A model generated the notes under the pieces. That model was not told the origin of the DNA. It did no database searches and saw nothing but the letters and a program-made list of their open reading frames with translations. Below are positions 2,711-15,001 of a stretch of DNA of 64,000 bases, piece after piece; positions within the stretch are counted from its first letter, which is position 1; the number at the start of each line of letters is the position of its first letter. The stretch comes from Sphingobacteriaceae bacterium (lineage in GTDB: Bacteria > Bacteroidota > Bacteroidia > Sphingobacteriales > Sphingobacteriaceae): contig JACMJM010000032.1 of the NCBI GenBank assembly GCA_014380615.1, forward strand, positions 62,001 through 126,000, read 5' to 3'. The translations under genes and the position numbers were made by a program.

Positions 2711-3259
2711 CTAAAACGGACTTGTAAACTCTCTGAACAAAGGCAATACTTTATCTTTTTCTGAAAGTATTATTTCTTCATCTTTTAACCCCCAGTTGAT
2801 ACCCAGTTCGGGATCGTTCCAGATTACTCCGATTTCGGAAGCCTTGTTGTACAGGTTGGTTACTTTGTAGGAAAAAACGGTATTATCCTCCAGGGTAGCA
2901 AACCCGTGTAAAAAGCCGGGAGGGATCCATAACATTTTAAAGTTTTCGGCGCTTAACTCTACGCTTACGTGCTGGCCATAGGTGGGAGAATCTTTCCGTA
3001 TATCAACGGCAATATCAATTACACTGCCCTGTATAACCCGTACCAGTTTTCCCTGCGCAAACGGGTTTGCTTGTCCGTGTAAGCCTCTCAGCGTTCCGCG
3101 GTGCGAAAAGGACTGATTATCCTGAACAAAATCGGCGGTGATGCCTGCATCCTGAAAGATTTTTTTGTTGAAGTTTTCGAAGAAATAACCTCTGTCGTCT
3201 TTCCAAACTTTCGGTTCGATGATAAGTAGGTTGGGAATGGAAGTTTCTATAAAGTTCAT
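2711..3259 (-). CDS. rfbC: dTDP-4-dehydrorhamnose 3,5-epimerase
   Basis: RfbC/RmlC converts dTDP-4-keto-6-deoxy-glucose to dTDP-4-keto-rhamnose in the dTDP-L-rhamnose pathway that feeds surface polysaccharides. The 182 residues are the normal length for this cupin fold. Visible signatures include RGLHGQ (catalytic His region), VIQGSVIDIAVDIRKDSPTYG and WIPPGFLHGFATL. The other rhamnose genes (rfbA, B, D) are not in the window. The start codon overlaps the stop of the upstream DUF4286 gene as TAATG, so the two are translationally coupled, and the TPR gene lies just upstream of both. Confidence 0.95.
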   Translation of the reverse strand: MNFIETSIPNLLIIEPKVWKDDRGYFFENFNKKIFQDAGITADFVQDNQSFSHRGTLRGLHGQANPFAQGKLVRVIQGSVIDIAVDIRKDSPTYGQHVSVELSAENFKMLWIPPGFLHGFATLEDNTVFSYKVTNLYNKASEIGVIWNDPELGINWGLKDEEIILSEKDKVLPLFREFTSPF

Positions 3260-3561
3260 TAGCTTATAAATTCCATAACGGTACTGAAGTGTACGGCCTG
3301 GTTATTGAATTTTAGTGAATGAGAGTTTAACAATGCAGAAGCGTGAACCTCTTTAAAGGTTGTGTAATTTTGAATGTTATCCGCAATAAATTGAAGGCAG
3401 TATGTTACCCCCTCGTTTGGCGATTCGAGTACTTTTAGTACGCGATTTGAGACTAAAAGACTGCTTGACAAAGCTTCGGGAATAAAGGTTTGATTGATCC
3501 AGCTTAGCCATTGGGCCTCGATGGCCTCATCAACTATAACCGTGATATTGTAAAGAATCAT
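3259..3561 (-). CDS. DUF4286 family protein
   Basis: A 100-residue soluble protein of the DUF4286 family, which is common in Bacteroidota and has no known function. It has the family's opening MILYNITVIVDE and a small ferredoxin-like pattern of strands. It starts 27 bases after the TPR gene stop and its own stop overlaps the rfbC start by one base (TAATG), so TPR, DUF4286 and rfbC are probably one transcript. Nothing in the sequence ties it to rhamnose synthesis directly. Confidence 0.85.
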   Translation of the reverse strand: MILYNITVIVDEAIEAQWLSWINQTFIPEALSSSLLVSNRVLKVLESPNEGVTYCLQFIADNIQNYTTFKEVHASALLNSHSLKFNNQAVHFSTVMEFIS

Positions 3562-5623: not shown

Positions 5624-7513
5624 ATGCAGAAACAGTTGAAGAAATGGCTATGTGTTGTCGGAGTGTTCCTGTTGGCAGCTTGTTCTGGCGAGCGAAAGGC
5701 AAAAAGAGTATTACTGGAAGATTTTTTTAAGAATCCGGTAAAAACTTCTTTTCTTATTTCGCCCGATGGAAAATACATCTCCTATCAGCAACCTTATAAA
5801 AACCGTATGAATATTTTTGTTCAGACCGTTGATGGCAAGAATGTTACACGTATAACTAACGAAGCGGAATACAATACAACTTTCTATTGCTGGGCAAATA
5901 ATAACGAGTTGCTCTTTATGAACGACAACGGCCGTGATAAAAGTGCGCATTTGTATGCGGTATCTAAAACCGGGGAGAACTTTCGGGGCTTATTGCCGGT
6001 CGACTCCGTACGGGTTCGTTTAATTAATCACCATAATATTATCAATAATCAATTGTTAATCGCTCTAAATAAACGCGATTCAACCATATTTGATGTTTAT
6101 CGATTAAATATCGGAACGGGTAAGCTCGCGCTCGCCGAAAAAAATCCTGGAAATATTATACACTGGTTTGCCGATGATTACGGGATGTTGCGGATGGCTT
6201 TAGCAAGTGACGGAGTTAATGAAACTTTGCTTTTCAGGACATCGGAGACCGAAGAATTCAGGCCTGTTATAACGAATAATTTTAAGAACAAAATATCCCC
6301 GATAGGGTACTGCAATACCAAAAAGACGCGTATTTATGCGCTTTCGAATTTGAATCGCGATAAGGCCGCGCTGGTTGAATTTGATTGTGAAACAGGTAAG
6401 GAAACAAAAGTGATTGTGTCTCATCCCGACGTAGATATTAGCGAAGGAGGGTATTCTTTTTCACGCCATAAGTTGCTTTATGCCAGTTATGAAACCTGGA
6501 AAAAAGAGCGGATTTATCTCAATGATTCTGTAAAGGCGGTGTATAAGCATTTGGAAGGGCTGCTTCCTAATACTGAAATACGCATAGTGGATCGCGATTC
6601 GGTTGAAAAGCAATTTATTATTAAAACTTTCACCGATAAAACTCCAGGGGCCTTTTATCATTATTCTATAAAAACCGGAAAGCTTGTAAAGCTAAGCGAT
6701 ATTAATCCTTCTATACTCGAAGAGGAAATGTGCGGAATGAAACCTGTATCATACAAGTCGCGCGATGGTTTGACTATAAACGGTTATTTAACACTACCAT
6801 TAGGATATAAGCCTAAAAATTTGCCATTAATAGTTATCCCGCACGGAGGGCCGGCTTACCGAAACTCATGGGGTTTTAACCAGGAAGTGCAGTTTTTGGC
6901 CAATCGCGGATATGCTGTTTTTCAGGTAAATTTCAGAGGATCGAAAGGTTATGGAAAGAAGTTTTGGATTGCCGGATTTAAGAAGTGGGGCAGCGATATT
7001 CAAAACGATATTACTGATGGTGTGCAATGGCTCATAAAGGAAGGCATAGCTGATAAAAAACGAATCGGGATTTATGGTGCTGGCTTTGGCGGCTACAGTG
7101 CTTTACACGCATTATCTTTTCAGCCTAAGCTTTATGCCTGCGGGGCCTCTCAATCGGGTTTTCTCAATTTGTTTACCTACATAAAAGCAGTCCCTCCTCA
7201 TTACAGGCCTACCTTGCAAATGTATTATGAAATGGTAGGAAATCCTGAAAAGGAGATTGACGATTTAAGAGCGGTATCGCCTGTTTTTCATGCGGATAAA
7301 ATAAAAGCTCCATTGCTTATAGCCCAGGATACTAAAGATGAAAGGGTTAATATAAACGAGACCAATCAATTTGTTAAAGAGCTAAAAAAGCGTAAAATAC
7401 CTATAACATATATCACTAAGGAAAGTCGGGCATTCAATTTCAGAAACCCTGAGAACAGAATGGAGTTCTATAAAGAGCTGGAGAAATTTTTTGCCGCTAA
7501 CCTTATGAAGTGA
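5624..7513 (+). CDS. S9 prolyl-oligopeptidase-like lipoprotein, catalytic Ser and His missing
   Basis: A 629-residue lipoprotein: the ATG at 5624 (preferred to the TTG at 5612) begins a signal sequence with lipobox LLAAC. Residues about 30-370 look like a seven-bladed beta-propeller and about 375-629 like the alpha/beta-hydrolase domain of the S9 (acylaminoacyl-peptidase type) family. The nucleophile elbow, normally GxSYGGY, reads GAGFGGY, so the Ser is Gly487. The acid is kept (Asp572 in KDERVN). The His of the usual EGHGFR reads AFNFR, placing Phe604 there. Oxyanion-loop HGGP is present. It is therefore predicted to be an inactive, binding-only homologue. The histidine kinase starts 6 bases downstream, which suggests an accessory sensing role. 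Confidence 0.88.
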   Translation: MQKQLKKWLCVVGVFLLAACSGERKAKRVLLEDFFKNPVKTSFLISPDGKYISYQQPYKNRMNIFVQTVDGKNVTRITNEAEYNTTFYCWANNNELLFMNDNGRDKSAHLYAVSKTGENFRGLLPVDSVRVRLINHHNIINNQLLIALNKRDSTIFDVYRLNIGTGKLALAEKNPGNIIHWFADDYGMLRMALASDGVNETLLFRTSETEEFRPVITNNFKNKISPIGYCNTKKTRIYALSNLNRDKAALVEFDCETGKETKVIVSHPDVDISEGGYSFSRHKLLYASYETWKKERIYLNDSVKAVYKHLEGLLPNTEIRIVDRDSVEKQFIIKTFTDKTPGAFYHYSIKTGKLVKLSDINPSILEEEMCGMKPVSYKSRDGLTINGYLTLPLGYKPKNLPLIVIPHGGPAYRNSWGFNQEVQFLANRGYAVFQVNFRGSKGYGKKFWIAGFKKWGSDIQNDITDGVQWLIKEGIADKKRIGIYGAGFGGYSALHALSFQPKLYACGASQSGFLNLFTYIKAVPPHYRPTLQMYYEMVGNPEKEIDDLRAVSPVFHADKIKAPLLIAQDTKDERVNINETNQFVKELKKRKIPITYITKESRAFNFRNPENRMEFYKELEKFFAANLMK

Positions 7514-7519
7514 TAGTAA

Positions 7520-9196
7520 ATGGGAAGATTAAAGGAATATTATTACCGTAAAAACAACGTTTTAAACGCCAGTTTTTTGGTTTTAATAACCGTATCGCTC
7601 TTTGTTGCCCTGCTTCTGGCACATAACTTCACCGAAAAATATGTCGAGAATGAGTTTAATACTCAAAAAATTGCGGTACTGGAAGAAACTATAAAGCCTT
7701 ATAATGAGTTTTTTCTGAAAAAGATCCCCGAAATTTCCTTTTATCAGGGATACCTCGATTCGGCTTCGGTAGTTAAGTATACCGGTACTGTATTTAAAAC
7801 CTACCCTTTTGTAAGCCGGATTATTTTCTACGATACACAAATCAGTAATCACCCTGTTCCAAACGCATTTAGGGTTAATAACTTTTCGATGCTACCTAAA
7901 GTTATTTACCAGTTGGGCCCTGAAGTTCCCCCCGACTCTATGATTTTATATCGAAGTCCTGCGAAGAAACCCACAATCAGAGCTGTTGAAGAGTTTAATC
8001 GAATGGCTGTTAAGTTTTCCACTTATATAGGCAGCCTTGATACCACAAAAGCCCTTATAGAAAGTGAAACTTTCGACGTTTATTACAATATCACACATAA
8101 TCCAAGCAGAATTACATTTATGAATATCCCGCGGGAGCAGGATCTTCGGAGTTTCAACGATTTAATGTTGAAGCCGCCTAATTCTTCTCCAGTTTACGAG
8201 CAGGATATTCTGTCGTTCCGGTTAAATCCTTTTAAATTAAAGATCAGGAATAACCATTCGGAACTTTATCAGGAGATCAAAATCAAACCTATCGTTTTTG
8301 AGTCGGTTGATACAGATCCTGATTTGATAAGTACCGACCTTTCGCTAACCGGTGCTTTCGCCGATTATAAATTGTTCTTCAGCTCTTCCCGTAGTTATTT
8401 ATCAAAAGAAATAAACCGAAGGTTTTTCCCTGTGGCCTTATCAATTTTAGCGATATATGGTATTTTGGGGGTTATCGCGTATTTGATTTACCGAAATCTG
8501 AATATCAACAGCAGGATGTTTAAGCTACAGTATGATTTTATTAATAATTTAACTCATGAGTTTAAAACTCCGCTAAGCGTTATTAAAATAGCAGGCAATA
8601 ACATACGGAGTTCTAATACACTTTCGGACAAGGAACGGTTGCGATACGGTAAAATATTGGATGAGGAGGCAGACAAGCTGAATGATTTAATGAATAAGCT
8701 CTTGTCATTTACTCAAATTGAGAATCAATCAATCCAGATAAAGAGCGAAGAACTTAATCTGGAAGTGTTTGTTCAGAACTTAATTGACGCTTATCAGATA
8801 AAGTATCCTGAGTATGAGATAACTTACAATATCAGGAAGGTTGAAGTGTTTAAAACAGATCCGGTATTGATGGCAAGTATTTTTCAAAATCTTATTGAAA
8901 ATGCTTATAAATATTCTCTGCCTAAGAGAAAAGAATTGCATATTGATATATCGGTAGAGCGTGGTAAAATAGTATTCAGGTTTGCCGATCAGGGTATCGG
9001 GATCCCGAAAGAGGAGATGGAGAATATATTCAGAAAGTTCTACAGGATACAAAGCCAGTATAATCAGCAGGGTAGTGTAGGCTTAGGGTTAGCATTTTGT
9101 AAGGAACTGGTTAATTTTATGAAAGGTGATATTTTTGTTAAAAGTAAAGTCGGAATCGGTTCTGAATTTACCATAGTTTTACCATACGAACAGTAA
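7520..9196 (+). CDS. Membrane sensor histidine kinase
   Basis: A 558-residue kinase. TM helix at about 17-35, a roughly 260-residue periplasmic sensor region, a second TM at about 298-322, then HisKA with the H-box NNLTHEFKTPL (phospho-His346) and a HATPase domain (N box FQNLIENAYKYS, G1 DQGIGIP, G2 GSVGLGLAF). The overall plan resembles the Bacteroides RprX type. The sensor region has no family I recognise. It begins 6 bases after the S9-like lipoprotein and ends 1 base before the response regulator start, so the three genes are almost certainly one operon. Confidence 0.93.
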   Translation: MGRLKEYYYRKNNVLNASFLVLITVSLFVALLLAHNFTEKYVENEFNTQKIAVLEETIKPYNEFFLKKIPEISFYQGYLDSASVVKYTGTVFKTYPFVSRIIFYDTQISNHPVPNAFRVNNFSMLPKVIYQLGPEVPPDSMILYRSPAKKPTIRAVEEFNRMAVKFSTYIGSLDTTKALIESETFDVYYNITHNPSRITFMNIPREQDLRSFNDLMLKPPNSSPVYEQDILSFRLNPFKLKIRNNHSELYQEIKIKPIVFESVDTDPDLISTDLSLTGAFADYKLFFSSSRSYLSKEINRRFFPVALSILAIYGILGVIAYLIYRNLNINSRMFKLQYDFINNLTHEFKTPLSVIKIAGNNIRSSNTLSDKERLRYGKILDEEADKLNDLMNKLLSFTQIENQSIQIKSEELNLEVFVQNLIDAYQIKYPEYEITYNIRKVEVFKTDPVLMASIFQNLIENAYKYSLPKRKELHIDISVERGKIVFRFADQGIGIPKEEMENIFRKFYRIQSQYNQQGSVGLGLAFCKELVNFMKGDIFVKSKVGIGSEFTIVLPYEQ

Positions 9197-9197
9197 T

Positions 9198-9884
9198 ATG
9201 AATAAAGAGATAAAAGTTGCAATAGTAGAAGATGATGAAAATCTTCGCTTTCTGGTTTCTCATCGATTACAAGCTGAAGGCTATGTAACTCTGGAAGCAT
9301 CGGATGGTAGTGAGGCTGAAGAACTTATTATGGCCGAATCCCCCGATATTGTTTTATTAGATTGGATGCTTCCGATTAAAGAAGGCTCTGAGGTGTGTAA
9401 AAATGTACGTGAAAAAGGATATGAAGGGGTAATTATCATGATGACCGCCAAGGCGCAGGACGTTGATAAAATTAACGCCTATAGTTTCGGTGTGTCCGAC
9501 TATGTAACCAAACCGTTTAATATGGATGTTTTGGTTGCTCTCATAGAAAACAAAGTAAAGTTTGTGATCAACAATGAGAAAACCGAGAGCCATAAATTCG
9601 GTAATATGGAGCATCACCCCAATACCCACTCACTTTTAAAGGGCGGTAAAAAAATCGAGCTTACCATATTGGAGAACCGGATTTTGCTGTACTTTCTTAA
9701 AAATGCCAATAAGGTTATCCATCGCGACGAATTGATGATGGTGGTATGGGGCTATAACTCCGACGTAAATACCCGTACATTGGATATGCACATAGTTAGG
9801 CTCAGAAAAAAGATTGAAGACAATCCAGACACTCCGAACTATTTGCAAACAGTTCGAGGAATCGGTTATAAATTTGTTTACTGA
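9198..9884 (+). CDS. OmpR/PhoB-family response regulator
   Basis: A 228-residue regulator: receiver domain (1-120) with acidic pair EDD near the N-terminus, phospho-acceptor Asp55 in IVLLDWMLP, Thr in MMTAK and Lys in VTKPF; then a winged-helix DNA-binding domain ending in TVRGIGYKFVY. It is the cognate partner of the kinase 1 base upstream and is similar in plan to RprY. A strong terminator follows at 9902-9939. Targets cannot be read from the window; the S9-like gene at the head of the operon is a natural candidate for autoregulation. Confidence 0.95.
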   Translation: MNKEIKVAIVEDDENLRFLVSHRLQAEGYVTLEASDGSEAEELIMAESPDIVLLDWMLPIKEGSEVCKNVREKGYEGVIIMMTAKAQDVDKINAYSFGVSDYVTKPFNMDVLVALIENKVKFVINNEKTESHKFGNMEHHPNTHSLLKGGKKIELTILENRILLYFLKNANKVIHRDELMMVVWGYNSDVNTRTLDMHIVRLRKKIEDNPDTPNYLQTVRGIGYKFVY

Positions 9885-9901: not shown

Positions 9902-9939
9902 AAAAACCCTGCATCAATTTTATGATGCAGGGTTTTTTT
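9902..9939 (+). terminator. Rho-independent terminator of the two-component operon
   Basis: Stem CCCTGCATCA / TGATGCAGGG with a 6-base loop, preceded by AAAAA and followed by TTTTTTT. It lies 17 bases after the response regulator stop. Confidence 0.9.
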
Positions 9940-10048: not shown

Positions 10049-13000
10049 TTATTGAGTAACAATAGCTTTAAAAGTAAGTGATACATTACTTCCTGTTAAC
10101 TTGAAGAAATACACACCAGGTGCGATTGCAGATGCATCGTAGCTGAATGAATACTCCTGGAAAGATTTAGCAGGGCCAGAATAAATACTCTGAACTTTAG
10201 CACCACTTACATTAAACATATCCAAAGTTACTTTTGCTTCATCTGTAACTACGTTAAATGTAACTGTAGTTTGTTTAGCCAAAGGATTTGGATATGCGGC
10301 AAGCGAATTGGTATTGTTTACCGATAAGCCCGGAGCAAGAGACATATCTAAAGATGAAACTGCTGCTATAGAACCGGTAGAACCACAGTTACCTATAGTG
10401 CTTCCTTTTACAAGATGTGCATTAACCGCATTCGGGCTGATACAGATTTGTACCCAAGGGTTTTTAGCACTTCCGGTTTTCTGACAAACTAATACTTTGT
10501 CGTTTTTGTTTCCGCAACGAACGTCAACTACGGTGATAGTTACACTAGTAGCCGCAGAACATCCGAACTCATTCGTAGCAATAACATCAAAAGTGTAGCT
10601 GCCAGCCGCGCTTGGTGTAAATACCGGGCTTGCGCTTGTAGCAGAGCTTAAGCCGGTAGACGGCGACCATGCGTAAGTTGTTAAACTGTTTGATGATGTA
10701 CCATTGGTTGCGTTAAGTGTTAAACTTTGCGCACCATAACCTAAGGCAATGGTTTTGTTGTTTAAACCGGTAAAAGTGTTATCAGTTCTTGTAACAGCAA
10801 CTGTAGGAACCGGCGTAACGCCAATTACATTTACAACAGCCGAGGCCGAAGAAACGTTACCGTTTTTATCAGTTACAGTAAGAATAACCGTATTGTTTCC
10901 AAGATTTGAACAATCAAACGCTGATTTATCAATGCTTAACGATTGGATTCCGCAAGCATCATTGCTATTGTTATCAACAGAAGCGGCAGTTATTGTTGCC
11001 GAACCGTTTACAAGTGTAACAGAGATGTTTTGGGTTAAAGCAATCGGAGCCACATTATCTTCAACAGTAACCGTTGCAGTAGCAGAAGAACTGTTTCCGT
11101 TAACATCAGTAACTGTTAAAGTAACTGTGTTTACACCTACATTCGAGCAATCAAATGATTTTTTGTCAAGGCTGTAAGAAGCGATTGAGCAATTATCAGA
11201 TGAACCGTTGTTGATTTGTGATTCGGTGATAGCACCTTGTCCGTTAGCGTCAAGTTGAACAGTAACGTTTTGTGTCGCAACTATAGGCGCTATGTTATCC
11301 TGAACAGTAACAGTTGCCTGAGCGCTTGCTACATTGCCGTGGATATCAGTTACAGTTAATTCTACAATGTTCGCACCAACATTTGAGCAGTCGAAAGAAG
11401 ACTTGTTTAATGAATATGATGCGATACCGCAATTATCAGTAGAATTGTTATTGATTTGTGATACAACAATACCGGCAGTACCTGCAGCATTTAATTGTAC
11501 GATGATGTTTTGAGTAAGTACATTCGGTAACTGAGTGTCTTTTACAGTAACGTCAAAGCTCTGGGTAGAAGTATTACCAGCAGCATCAGTTGCTACAAAG
11601 GTATTCGTAGTAGTTCCTACAGGGAATATTGCACCCGATGGCAAGCCCACAGTTTGTGCGATAGTAGTACCAGGGCCGTAACCGATTCCCCATACGCCGA
11701 ATGAAGAGTTACTGCTGGATGCAGTCCATCCTAAGTAATCAGATTCAAAGCTTCCGTTAACTAATGAACTTCCGGTAATTTTTACATTATCAAGAAGTAC
11801 ATCAAGATAGAAGTTGTTTACAGTTGCGTCAATAACCTGCAAGCGTACATTTTGACCCGCAAATTCTGAAATATCAAAACTGTAACTAGTCATTGGTATT
11901 GAAGAAGGCGCACCCGGATTAGTTTTGAATACAGTACGCAATAAAGCGTTTGTTGAAGCATTTCTGATCTGTACCGCGATAAATTGATTGTTAGAATCAA
12001 AGCTACCGTAATGGTTAGTGTACTTCAAATCATAGCTTAATACAATCGGGCCGACAGCCGGTAAAGTAACGTTCTGGTATAAGTAATGAGTAGAACTTCC
12101 TGATTGCAAGAAGACCGCCATTTTTTGTCCGTCTGTTGGATTAAATGTTAGCGGTAAACCTGGAGATGATTGTGATTCAAAGCGGTTATTAGCGAAATCG
12201 TAGAATTGCTGTCCGCTTTGTAATACATGTACAACATTAGCGCTGGTTACAACACTGCAATTATCTGTTGCTACAGGCATGGCGTAGTTTACAACCGCAC
12301 TACATTTATTAAGGTTGTTATTAACAGTGAATGACGCAGGAGCCGTAATTGATGGAGGCGTTACATCATTAACTGTAATGGTGGCGGCACTTGTACTGCT
12401 TGCGCCTTTAGTATCCGTAACGGTTAAAGTAACATTTGTTACTCCAATTTTATACGGGCCAGCCGGAGAAACTGAGTAAGTTAGTGAATCTCCGTCTGCA
12501 TCTGTTGAACCGTTGTTGAAATCAAGAGCTGAAGCGATTGCCTGGCAATTTGCATTTGCCGGAAGAACCAGTGATTTAGCTATTGCAACAGGTGCGGCAT
12601 TACAAAATGATCCGGGATCTGTAACAGTTACTTCAGCAACAGCAGAGCTTTGGTTTCCGCTAGCATCAGATACTACCAAAGTTACAGATACAGGTGCACC
12701 CACATCAGAGCAGTTGAAAGTAGTAGGGCCGGTTATTGATAAAGTTACAGCACTGCAATTATCTGCGCTGCCATTGTCAATACTTGAGGTAGTAATACTT
12801 GCTACGCCTGATGAATCTAGTGCTAATGTGATGTTTTTTGCTTTTGCAACAGGAGCTACGTTGTCTGTAGCATTAACCGCTACTGGAGCAGATATCGCAG
12901 AGCAGCCAAACAGGTCGAGTACACTTACAGTATAAGTACCGGCTGTTGTTGTAACTAGTTGCCTTTGTGTAGCACCCGCCATTAATACACCATTTTTATA

Positions 13001-15001
13001 CCACTGATAAGTGCTTGATTCTGAAGCGGTGATTGTTAACTGGCCATTGCATAATGAGGCATTTCCAGTTGGTAGTGTAGTAACCGTTGGATTGTTATTT
13101 ACATTAACAGTTGTTGCGGAAGAAGTTCCTGAACATCCGCCAGCGTTAGTAACCGCAACTGTATATTCTCCTGATTCTGAAGCTGAATAGCTCTGGCTTG
13201 TCGCACCGTCTATTGCAACGCCATTTCTGAACCATTGGTAGCTGTCTCCGGTGTTTGCAGACATTGCTACTGTTTGACCCTGACAAACCGTAGACTGGCC
13301 GGCAACTATAATAGCTGCTGATACCACAGTAACTGTAGCCGGGGCTGTAGAAATATTTCCTGCTCTGTCTCTAACTCTTAAAATAACTGCGTTAGCGCCA
13401 AGATCGGCACAAGTGAAAGCGCTTTTGTTAAGTGTTATAGAGTCAAGCCCGCAAGCATCGCTTGATCCGTTGTCGATCATAGCAGGAGTGATAATAGCCG
13501 TGCCCGCAGGACTCAATGGCACAATGATGTTTTTTGCGATCGCAACCGGCGGGGTATTGTCGGTTACAGTACTATTGTTTCTGTGAACACGAAGACTGTT
13601 GTAAGAAATACCGCTTGTAGAAATATCAGGAACATTATCACCGTCTAAATCAGCGATAAGCACACCGCTAACTTCTGCCTGTCCGGCGTAGTCGATACGT
13701 GGAGCGAATGAAATATTTCCCGCACCTGTACTTGTGTTTTTGTAAACGGAGAATTTATTTTCACCGCTTGATTTAGTAACAATATCCGGACTTCCGTCGC
13801 CATCCGCATCACCTACACCAATTCTGTAGTTGCTGCTAGGGCTAGCCATATTGTAAGGAGCGGCGAAGCTGATGGTACCAACAGCAGAGGTATTTCTAAA
13901 AATTGAAGTTGTTCCGCCGTTGTGATTATTGGTTGTGAAATCAATTTTACCGTCTTTGTCAAAATCTCCTAAAAATAACCGGTATGGATAAGCTGATCCG
14001 GTTGCCCAGGTTTGAGTAGGAGCGAATGTGAAGGTGGTTGCACCAGGTGCCGTCGTGTTTCTTACAGCCGTAACAAAGTTATTTCCACCACAACTTGTGC
14101 CAATATCTACCGTTCCGTTTCCATCAACATCGGCGATTGCTATTCCTGTAGCAGAACCGATATTGTTGATGTTAGTGTTTTGAATGAAACTGATTGTGCC
14201 TGGTGTTGAGGTGTTTCTGAAGGTAAATAATATATTACCCTGTGTATTGGCTAAATCAATTTTACCGTCATTGTTTAAATCTCCGGCGGCAATCTGATAA
14301 CCGTTTGTTCCGGCTAATAATCCAACCTGAGTAAATGATATGTTACCAGGAGTACTATTATTTTTTAACAGGTAAGTTCCGTAGCCGGTTACGGTTACCG
14401 CGATGTCAATTTTTCCGTCGCCGTCAAAATCTGCGGGAACCTGGCACCTTGAAGGCCCGGGAAGATAAACCCTGTACTCTGGAGCGAATGAAAATGCTCC
14501 CGGATTACTTAGATTTCTTACAATGGATATACTGTTTTGTGTAAATCCGGTAACAAGAAGGTCTGGCTTGCCATCTAAATCCATATCCTGTGATACCATT
14601 TGGTAACCACCGCTCACATACTGAGAATACGATACCGTATTATAAGTAGTGGCTGATATTGTGGTAGGGCAAAAAATACCATTGAAAGAGGAGGATGATG
14701 CGCCGATTAAATTACAGCCGTTCTTAACGGTAATAGGGGCGTAAGTTGCGCCTAGAGGAACCTTAACCGTTAATACTCCGAACGATGCGGTAAGTACCTG
14801 TGCCTTAGTGGCGCCAAAAAATACCTGATTATTTGCAGGGATCGGGTCGAAATAGGATCCCGATATTGTTACTGTGCTACCTATAAACCCGGTATTGGGG
14901 CTAAAGGTGTTAATTACCGGCGCATTGCAGACTTGTGCGTTTGCGATGGTACCCACAGCCAGAATGAGGGCCGTGATTAAAATAGTAAAAGTTTTTTTCA
15001 T
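10049..15001 (-). CDS. Giant secreted multidomain protein with T9SS sorting domain
   Basis: A 1650-residue surface or secreted protein. In order: signal peptide (ending ANAQ); IPT/TIG domain (about 24-95); a run of VCBS/FG-GAP repeats (about 110-480) with repeated DxDGDGxxD calcium-type motifs; two roughly 80-residue Ig-like repeats with Ig-like modules (QWFRNG, QWYKNG) between them; a HYR domain interrupted by about 190 residues; three more near-identical 80-residue repeats (SSDNCSIASYSLDKKSFDCS type); a PKD-like module; a Cys-rich ICISPNAVNAHL segment; and a type A T9SS C-terminal domain (AAYPNPLAKQ to the end). No catalytic domain is recognised; adhesion or matrix function is inferred. The T9SS genes are 26 kb away in this window. 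Confidence 0.92.
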   Translation of the reverse strand: MKKTFTILITALILAVGTIANAQVCNAPVINTFSPNTGFIGSTVTISGSYFDPIPANNQVFFGATKAQVLTASFGVLTVKVPLGATYAPITVKNGCNLIGASSSSFNGIFCPTTISATTYNTVSYSQYVSGGYQMVSQDMDLDGKPDLLVTGFTQNSISIVRNLSNPGAFSFAPEYRVYLPGPSRCQVPADFDGDGKIDIAVTVTGYGTYLLKNNSTPGNISFTQVGLLAGTNGYQIAAGDLNNDGKIDLANTQGNILFTFRNTSTPGTISFIQNTNINNIGSATGIAIADVDGNGTVDIGTSCGGNNFVTAVRNTTAPGATTFTFAPTQTWATGSAYPYRLFLGDFDKDGKIDFTTNNHNGGTTSIFRNTSAVGTISFAAPYNMASPSSNYRIGVGDADGDGSPDIVTKSSGENKFSVYKNTSTGAGNISFAPRIDYAGQAEVSGVLIADLDGDNVPDISTSGISYNSLRVHRNNSTVTDNTPPVAIAKNIIVPLSPAGTAIITPAMIDNGSSDACGLDSITLNKSAFTCADLGANAVILRVRDRAGNISTAPATVTVVSAAIIVAGQSTVCQGQTVAMSANTGDSYQWFRNGVAIDGATSQSYSASESGEYTVAVTNAGGCSGTSSATTVNVNNNPTVTTLPTGNASLCNGQLTITASESSTYQWYKNGVLMAGATQRQLVTTTAGTYTVSVLDLFGCSAISAPVAVNATDNVAPVAKAKNITLALDSSGVASITTSSIDNGSADNCSAVTLSITGPTTFNCSDVGAPVSVTLVVSDASGNQSSAVAEVTVTDPGSFCNAAPVAIAKSLVLPANANCQAIASALDFNNGSTDADGDSLTYSVSPAGPYKIGVTNVTLTVTDTKGASSTSAATITVNDVTPPSITAPASFTVNNNLNKCSAVVNYAMPVATDNCSVVTSANVVHVLQSGQQFYDFANNRFESQSSPGLPLTFNPTDGQKMAVFLQSGSSTHYLYQNVTLPAVGPIVLSYDLKYTNHYGSFDSNNQFIAVQIRNASTNALLRTVFKTNPGAPSSIPMTSYSFDISEFAGQNVRLQVIDATVNNFYLDVLLDNVKITGSSLVNGSFESDYLGWTASSSNSSFGVWGIGYGPGTTIAQTVGLPSGAIFPVGTTTNTFVATDAAGNTSTQSFDVTVKDTQLPNVLTQNIIVQLNAAGTAGIVVSQINNNSTDNCGIASYSLNKSSFDCSNVGANIVELTVTDIHGNVASAQATVTVQDNIAPIVATQNVTVQLDANGQGAITESQINNGSSDNCSIASYSLDKKSFDCSNVGVNTVTLTVTDVNGNSSSATATVTVEDNVAPIALTQNISVTLVNGSATITAASVDNNSNDACGIQSLSIDKSAFDCSNLGNNTVILTVTDKNGNVSSASAVVNVIGVTPVPTVAVTRTDNTFTGLNNKTIALGYGAQSLTLNATNGTSSNSLTTYAWSPSTGLSSATSASPVFTPSAAGSYTFDVIATNEFGCSAATSVTITVVDVRCGNKNDKVLVCQKTGSAKNPWVQICISPNAVNAHLVKGSTIGNCGSTGSIAAVSSLDMSLAPGLSVNNTNSLAAYPNPLAKQTTVTFNVVTDEAKVTLDMFNVSGAKVQSIYSGPAKSFQEYSFSYDASAIAPGVYFFKLTGSNVSLTFKAIVTQ

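Follow-up and report, generated by a model that had tools for sequence, protein, structure and literature searches.

Recurrent loss of catalytic residues in an S9-peptidase-fold lipoprotein encoded ahead of a two-component system in Sphingobacteriales

Nearly all genomes of the Sphingobacteriaceae carry an operon in which a lipoprotein of the S9C peptidase fold precedes a sensor histidine kinase and an OmpR/PhoB-type response regulator. Comparison of the orthologous sequences shows that catalysis by the lipoprotein is apparently optional: within this otherwise fixed, order-wide operon, its predicted catalytic residues have been lost recurrently, roughly 10–15 times. It is this recurrent, optional inactivation that is new, and we found no account of the operon, or of a dead S9 partner of a kinase, in the literature searched. 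The copy analyzed here lies in a 64,000-nucleotide stretch of a Sphingobacteriaceae genome (hereafter the window). Among named relatives, Paradesertivirga mongoliensis is closest (86% identity). Our preferred explanation, to which we give slightly better than an even chance, is that the lipoprotein is a catalysis-independent accessory sensor or modulator, a non-catalytic partner of an order-specific kinase. Whether the arrangement as a whole is an order-wide three-component system, with a peptidase-fold lipoprotein acting as catalysis-independent receptor for a kinase with a new family of periplasmic domain, and with a peptidase activity that is optional and was lost at least ten times in one orthologous operon, we regard as evenly balanced.

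A lipoprotein lacking the S9 nucleophile and catalytic histidine

The spacing of the three genes, with 6 bases between lipoprotein and kinase genes and 1 base between kinase and regulator genes, agrees with a preliminary description of the locus, as do the gene bounds and the presence of a terminator after the regulator (Table 1). That description also held that the lipoprotein gene is intact and the fold of its product kept, and this was borne out. Residues 416–627 match PF00326 (3e-42), a sequence alignment to the acylaminoacyl peptidase 5l8s spans the full length of the protein, and the same structure is the best Foldseek match of the lipoprotein model (E 1.3e-37, TM 0.83 on the target). 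Both features of the S9C group, a prolyl-oligopeptidase hydrolase domain and an N-terminal propeller, are present. Aligning the orthologues confirmed that Gly487 stands in the nucleophile column of the GxSxGG motif, where intact orthologues have Ser, that Phe604 stands in the catalytic His column (EGHxF), and that Asp572 is retained. His407, Gly409, Pro410, and Arg413 are mostly retained; of the motif around them, which bears on the earlier proposal that the protein may bind peptides without cutting them, only part is kept. The lipobox Cys occurs in each of the 37 intact and 97 doubly dead forms compared. The reading of the window lipoprotein as a pseudopeptidase, its capacity for peptide hydrolysis presumably lost, is thus supported at the level of sequence. 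The feature is more than a chance occurrence: the uninterrupted gene is subject to strong purifying selection and belongs to an arrangement conserved across the order.

Table 1. Positions of the operon's parts in the window
Feature	Position	Strand	Remark
S9C-fold lipoprotein gene, 629 aa product	5624..7513	+	catalytically dead as judged by sequence
Lipobox LAAC, residues 17-20	5672..5683	+	Cys conserved in intact and doubly dead forms
GGC = Gly487, nucleophile Ser column	7082..7084	+	alignment of orthologues
GAT = Asp572, triad Asp retained	7337..7339	+	alignment of orthologues
TTC = Phe604, catalytic His column	7433..7435	+	alignment of orthologues
Sensor histidine kinase, 558 aa, two TM helices, HisKA + HATPase_c	7520..9196	+	
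Unnamed periplasmic sensor domain, kinase residues 34-304, apparently order-restricted, weakly dCache-like model	7619..8431	+	
OmpR/PhoB-type response regulator, 228 aa	9198..9884	+	
Intrinsic terminator-like hairpin, 15 pairs, usable from both strands	9902..9937	+	

The two-component pair has all of its expected domains (HisKA, HATPase_c, receiver, and winged-helix), and the kinase's transmembrane helices, at about residues 14–33 and 302–323, flank its periplasmic domain. The latter, previously described as unrecognised, indeed has no family match in Pfam or NCBIfam. Its AlphaFold model is confident (pLDDT 91.8), and most of its top Foldseek matches in the PDB are sensor domains of the dCache type or related to it, among them 3lie/3lid and 2p7j, at a weak level of similarity (E at least 0.018, TM 0.3–0.4); none of 60 members of the periplasmic-domain family matched a Cache family profile. 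On this model, a divergent dCache-like fold is plausible. An RprXY-like identity for the two-component system was considered and is unsupported, the RprY model reaching 132 bits where its cutoff is 370. A search upstream of the operon for regulator-binding repeats and a Bacteroidota promoter gave nothing usable above noise.

Repeated catalytic loss in a fixed operon

Of 201 genomes sampled from the family, 191 have an orthologue of the lipoprotein, and 399 of 401 genomes of the order encode a single copy of the kinase's periplasmic domain. A profile built from 60 members of this domain found it in none of 380 genomes from elsewhere in the class, so that an operon outside the order is not supported, and the domain looks restricted to the order. 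The three-gene arrangement, which had been proposed as something to seek in relatives, is nearly invariant: the kinase gene lies directly downstream on the same strand at 152 of the 154 orthologous S9 loci fetched, and the regulator follows the kinase at every locus where the contig extends far enough. Both exceptions (L092 and L185) are extra paralogues from genomes that also hold an operon copy. Another extra paralogue (G029:C1:361705-364971) is apparently in two pieces, again in a genome with an intact operon copy.

The window's substitutions, also proposed for a search in relatives, recur there in part. Ser and His are both missing from 97 of the 152 operonic orthologues, and the Ser-Asp-His triad is intact in 38. 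The preliminary description had named homologues of this operon with an intact triad as evidence against its proposal; the pseudoenzyme call stands for the window gene, and the 38 intact loci show catalysis to be an optional trait with repeated losses, not one absent from the system as such. Taken singly, the nucleophile Ser is present in 42 orthologues and absent from 110, the catalytic His is present in 51 and absent from 101, and the Asp is present in 150. Wherever Ser is present its codon is AGY, and most instances of Gly, the commonest replacement, have GGY, a single transition away; dead forms have Gly, Arg, Asn, or Glu in this column, and nearly unrestricted replacements in the His column. 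Two related operonic orthologues (L248 and L255) combine Glu in the nucleophile column with a retained His.

To count the losses, we used a tree of S9 and kinase sequences built with the catalytic columns left out and a tree of kinase and regulator sequences containing no S9 data. On the former, Ser requires at least 17 changes, His 10, and the intact versus non-intact state 13, and Fitch counts of the intact triad come to 13–14 changes across both trees. Under irreversible (Dollo) loss, the S9 and kinase tree gives 15 inactivations of the triad and the kinase and regulator tree 16, each with 10 losses of His. A single dead clade comprises 61 of the 150 sampled sequences, and several other inactivations sit at single tips. 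Four orthologues with Ser and without His (L142, L172, L174, and L178) are nested in dead clades and are probably chance one-step reversions from GGY to AGY. As a control, we took a DPP4-like S9 peptidase of the window genome and its relatives, in which the triad is intact at 50 of 50 loci spanning 35–100% identity; recurrent loss is therefore not general to S9 proteins in these genomes.

A presumed partnership with the kinase, and constraint after loss

Our preferred explanation treats the operon as an order-specific, three-part envelope-sensing module. The lipoprotein, an S9C acylaminoacyl peptidase by descent, would sit in the envelope beside a kinase with a Cache-like periplasmic domain and would modulate it, probably through the beta-propeller, and the OmpR-type regulator would carry the output. 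The job retained by dead forms would be binding of a ligand, docking on the kinase, or both. If that job needs no peptide hydrolysis, Ser and His could have been lost some 10–15 times with the remainder of the protein under unchanged constraint. The losses in sequence, the conserved operon, the constraint, and the restricted distribution are shown by the comparisons; contact between lipoprotein and kinase, the direction of signalling, and the ligand are what we infer.

We measured covariation of evolutionary rate as partial rank correlations of branch lengths, with bootstrapping. The S9 propeller covaries with the kinase periplasmic domain (0.35, CI 0.23–0.47) about as strongly as the cytoplasmic kinase does with the regulator (0.32), and the S9 hydrolase domain, itself correlated with the propeller at 0.54, gives only 0.04 with the periplasmic domain. 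Periplasmic and cytoplasmic parts of the kinase correlate at 0.27, and the periplasmic domain and regulator at about 0. The covariation order, from propeller to periplasmic domain to cytoplasmic kinase to regulator, is that expected of a signalling path; the value for propeller and cytoplasmic kinase (0.24) is not clearly below the 0.35 for propeller and periplasmic domain (bootstrap probability 0.85). With OmpA, DUF4286, and the epimerase as controls, the correlation of propeller and periplasmic domain stays at 0.36–0.48. When a secreted TPR protein encoded nearby serves as the control (50 taxa), it falls to 0.20, similar to that protein's own values and no higher.

The main competing explanation, which we consider unlikely yet deserving of serious attention, gives the lipoprotein its own non-catalytic role in the envelope, as a peptide binder, chaperone, or scaffold, and has it merely co-transcribed with the two-component system or produced as its output, with no kinase contact. 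That the TPR protein covaries to some degree is in keeping with this, as are five genomes where no intact S9 gene accompanies the kinase and regulator. Three of these, of genus g11 (G010, G033, and G048; loci L242-L244), have no S9 gene beside an intact kinase and regulator, and a divergent TPR gene directly adjoins the kinase gene; their periplasmic domains are not accelerated and show no excess change. In the other two (g16 genomes G141 and G186) an apparent frameshift, perhaps a sequencing error, interrupts the S9 gene. Nor did structure prediction join the two proteins: in an AlphaFold model of lipoprotein and periplasmic domain fused by in-frame read-through of the window DNA (51 paired rows, 50 of them orthologous), the domains are confident and the interface is not defined, and with a pTM of 0.65 no fixed interface is predicted, a result compatible both with a complex and with none. 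Against an independent role stand the near-invariant adjacency and gene order across the order, the confinement of kinase-less S9 orthologues to extra paralogues or contig-end cases, and a rate link that is specific to the propeller and absent between the periplasmic domain and either OmpA or the regulator. The earlier suggestion that the lipoprotein feeds the kinase is thus favoured indirectly, by the fixed operon, the near-identical phylogenetic range, and the rate covariation, and is weakened by the loci without an intact lipoprotein gene and by the undefined interface. The lipoprotein is therefore not obligatory, and would be an accessory to the kinase: both kinase and regulator are maintained in genomes that lack an intact S9 gene.

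Loss of catalysis has not relaxed constraint on the protein. Restricting the comparison to pairs with unsaturated dS, we obtained a median pairwise dN/dS of 0.042 for dead forms (9 pairs) and 0.054 for intact forms (7 pairs). The ratio of S9 to kinase branch length is 1.31 on dead and 1.20 on live branches (quotient 1.10, bootstrap 95% CI 0.96–1.25), and 83 of the 108 columns conserved to at least 97% in intact forms remain conserved to at least 90% in doubly dead ones. With ten or so losses, or more, and such strong preservation, the retained job is probably independent of cutting. We also considered that peptidase activity was the original signalling step and that dead copies are decaying passengers on their way to loss, as the lost or frameshifted genes of some lineages and the inactivations at single tips might suggest. 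A dN/dS near 0.04, with no significant rise in rate, speaks against a decaying pseudogene, and the size of the largest dead clade argues the same way; we consider this explanation very unlikely. Least probable of all is that the lipoprotein still hydrolyses peptides through an unusual mechanism or migrated residues, for although the protein keeps Asp572 and a large part of its pocket motif and, according to a passage in PMC10211241, pseudoenzymes of other families are active through migrated residues, the replacements in the Ser and His columns are as varied as described above and no compensating Ser, Thr, Cys, or His column was gained in dead forms, nor clearly in the window clade, in line with the original description of a dead S9 enzyme.

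Related systems and flanking genes

The S9C acylaminoacyl peptidases (5l8s, 4hxe/4hxg from P. horikoshii, and 1ve6 from A. pernix) are the lipoprotein's best matches in both sequence and structure, sharing the propeller, the alpha/beta hydrolase fold, the Asp, and much of the HGGP-type motif. Unlike them, the window lipoprotein and most of its orthologues lack the nucleophile Ser and catalytic His, and the protein is exported and a fixed neighbour of a two-component system. Loss of catalysis in an S9 fold has a parallel in DPP6 and DPP10, animal S9B paralogues that serve as non-catalytic auxiliary subunits of a membrane protein, with channels as partners; 4wjl ('Inactive dipeptidyl peptidase 10') is among the lipoprotein's sequence matches. 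Here, by contrast, the proteins are single-copy orthologues with many catalytic losses, presumably partnered with a sensor kinase. Most often, pseudoenzymes are observed following a single duplication and a single loss, whereas the single-copy orthologues of this fixed operon were deprived of the same catalytic residues some 10–15 times with constraint undiminished. The losses sit in lineages whose relatives still have an intact triad and so constitute a natural experiment; the set of intact and dead orthologues bears on whether a peptidase fold can signal by binding and not by cutting. More broadly, the finding suggests that the Sphingobacteriaceae share a core sensor-kinase system that has no name.

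A lipoprotein gene adjoining genes for a histidine kinase and an OmpR-type regulator is also found in MtrAB-LpqB, an actinobacterial three-component system in which, according to a passage in PMC12338722 citing Hoskisson and Hutchings 2006, the lipoprotein LpqB is a likely periplasmic modulator of the kinase. MtrA is the best NCBIfam match of the window regulator (190 bits, under its cutoff of 300). The two systems differ in phylum and gene order, and the S9 lipoprotein has no LpqB family match in Pfam or NCBIfam.

The position of the operon is syntenic, with a divergent DUF4286 gene upstream in 56 of the 60 loci with wide flanks. In the window, genes for a dTDP-4-dehydrorhamnose 3,5-epimerase and DUF4286 (2711-3561, minus strand) are divergent from the operon, an orientation seen family-wide. 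On its other side, the operon is faced by a gene (10049-15001, minus strand) for a secreted protein of 1650 residues, with a sorting tail for type IX secretion in addition to FG-GAP, HYR, and TIG domains, matched in only one of 60 syntenic loci.
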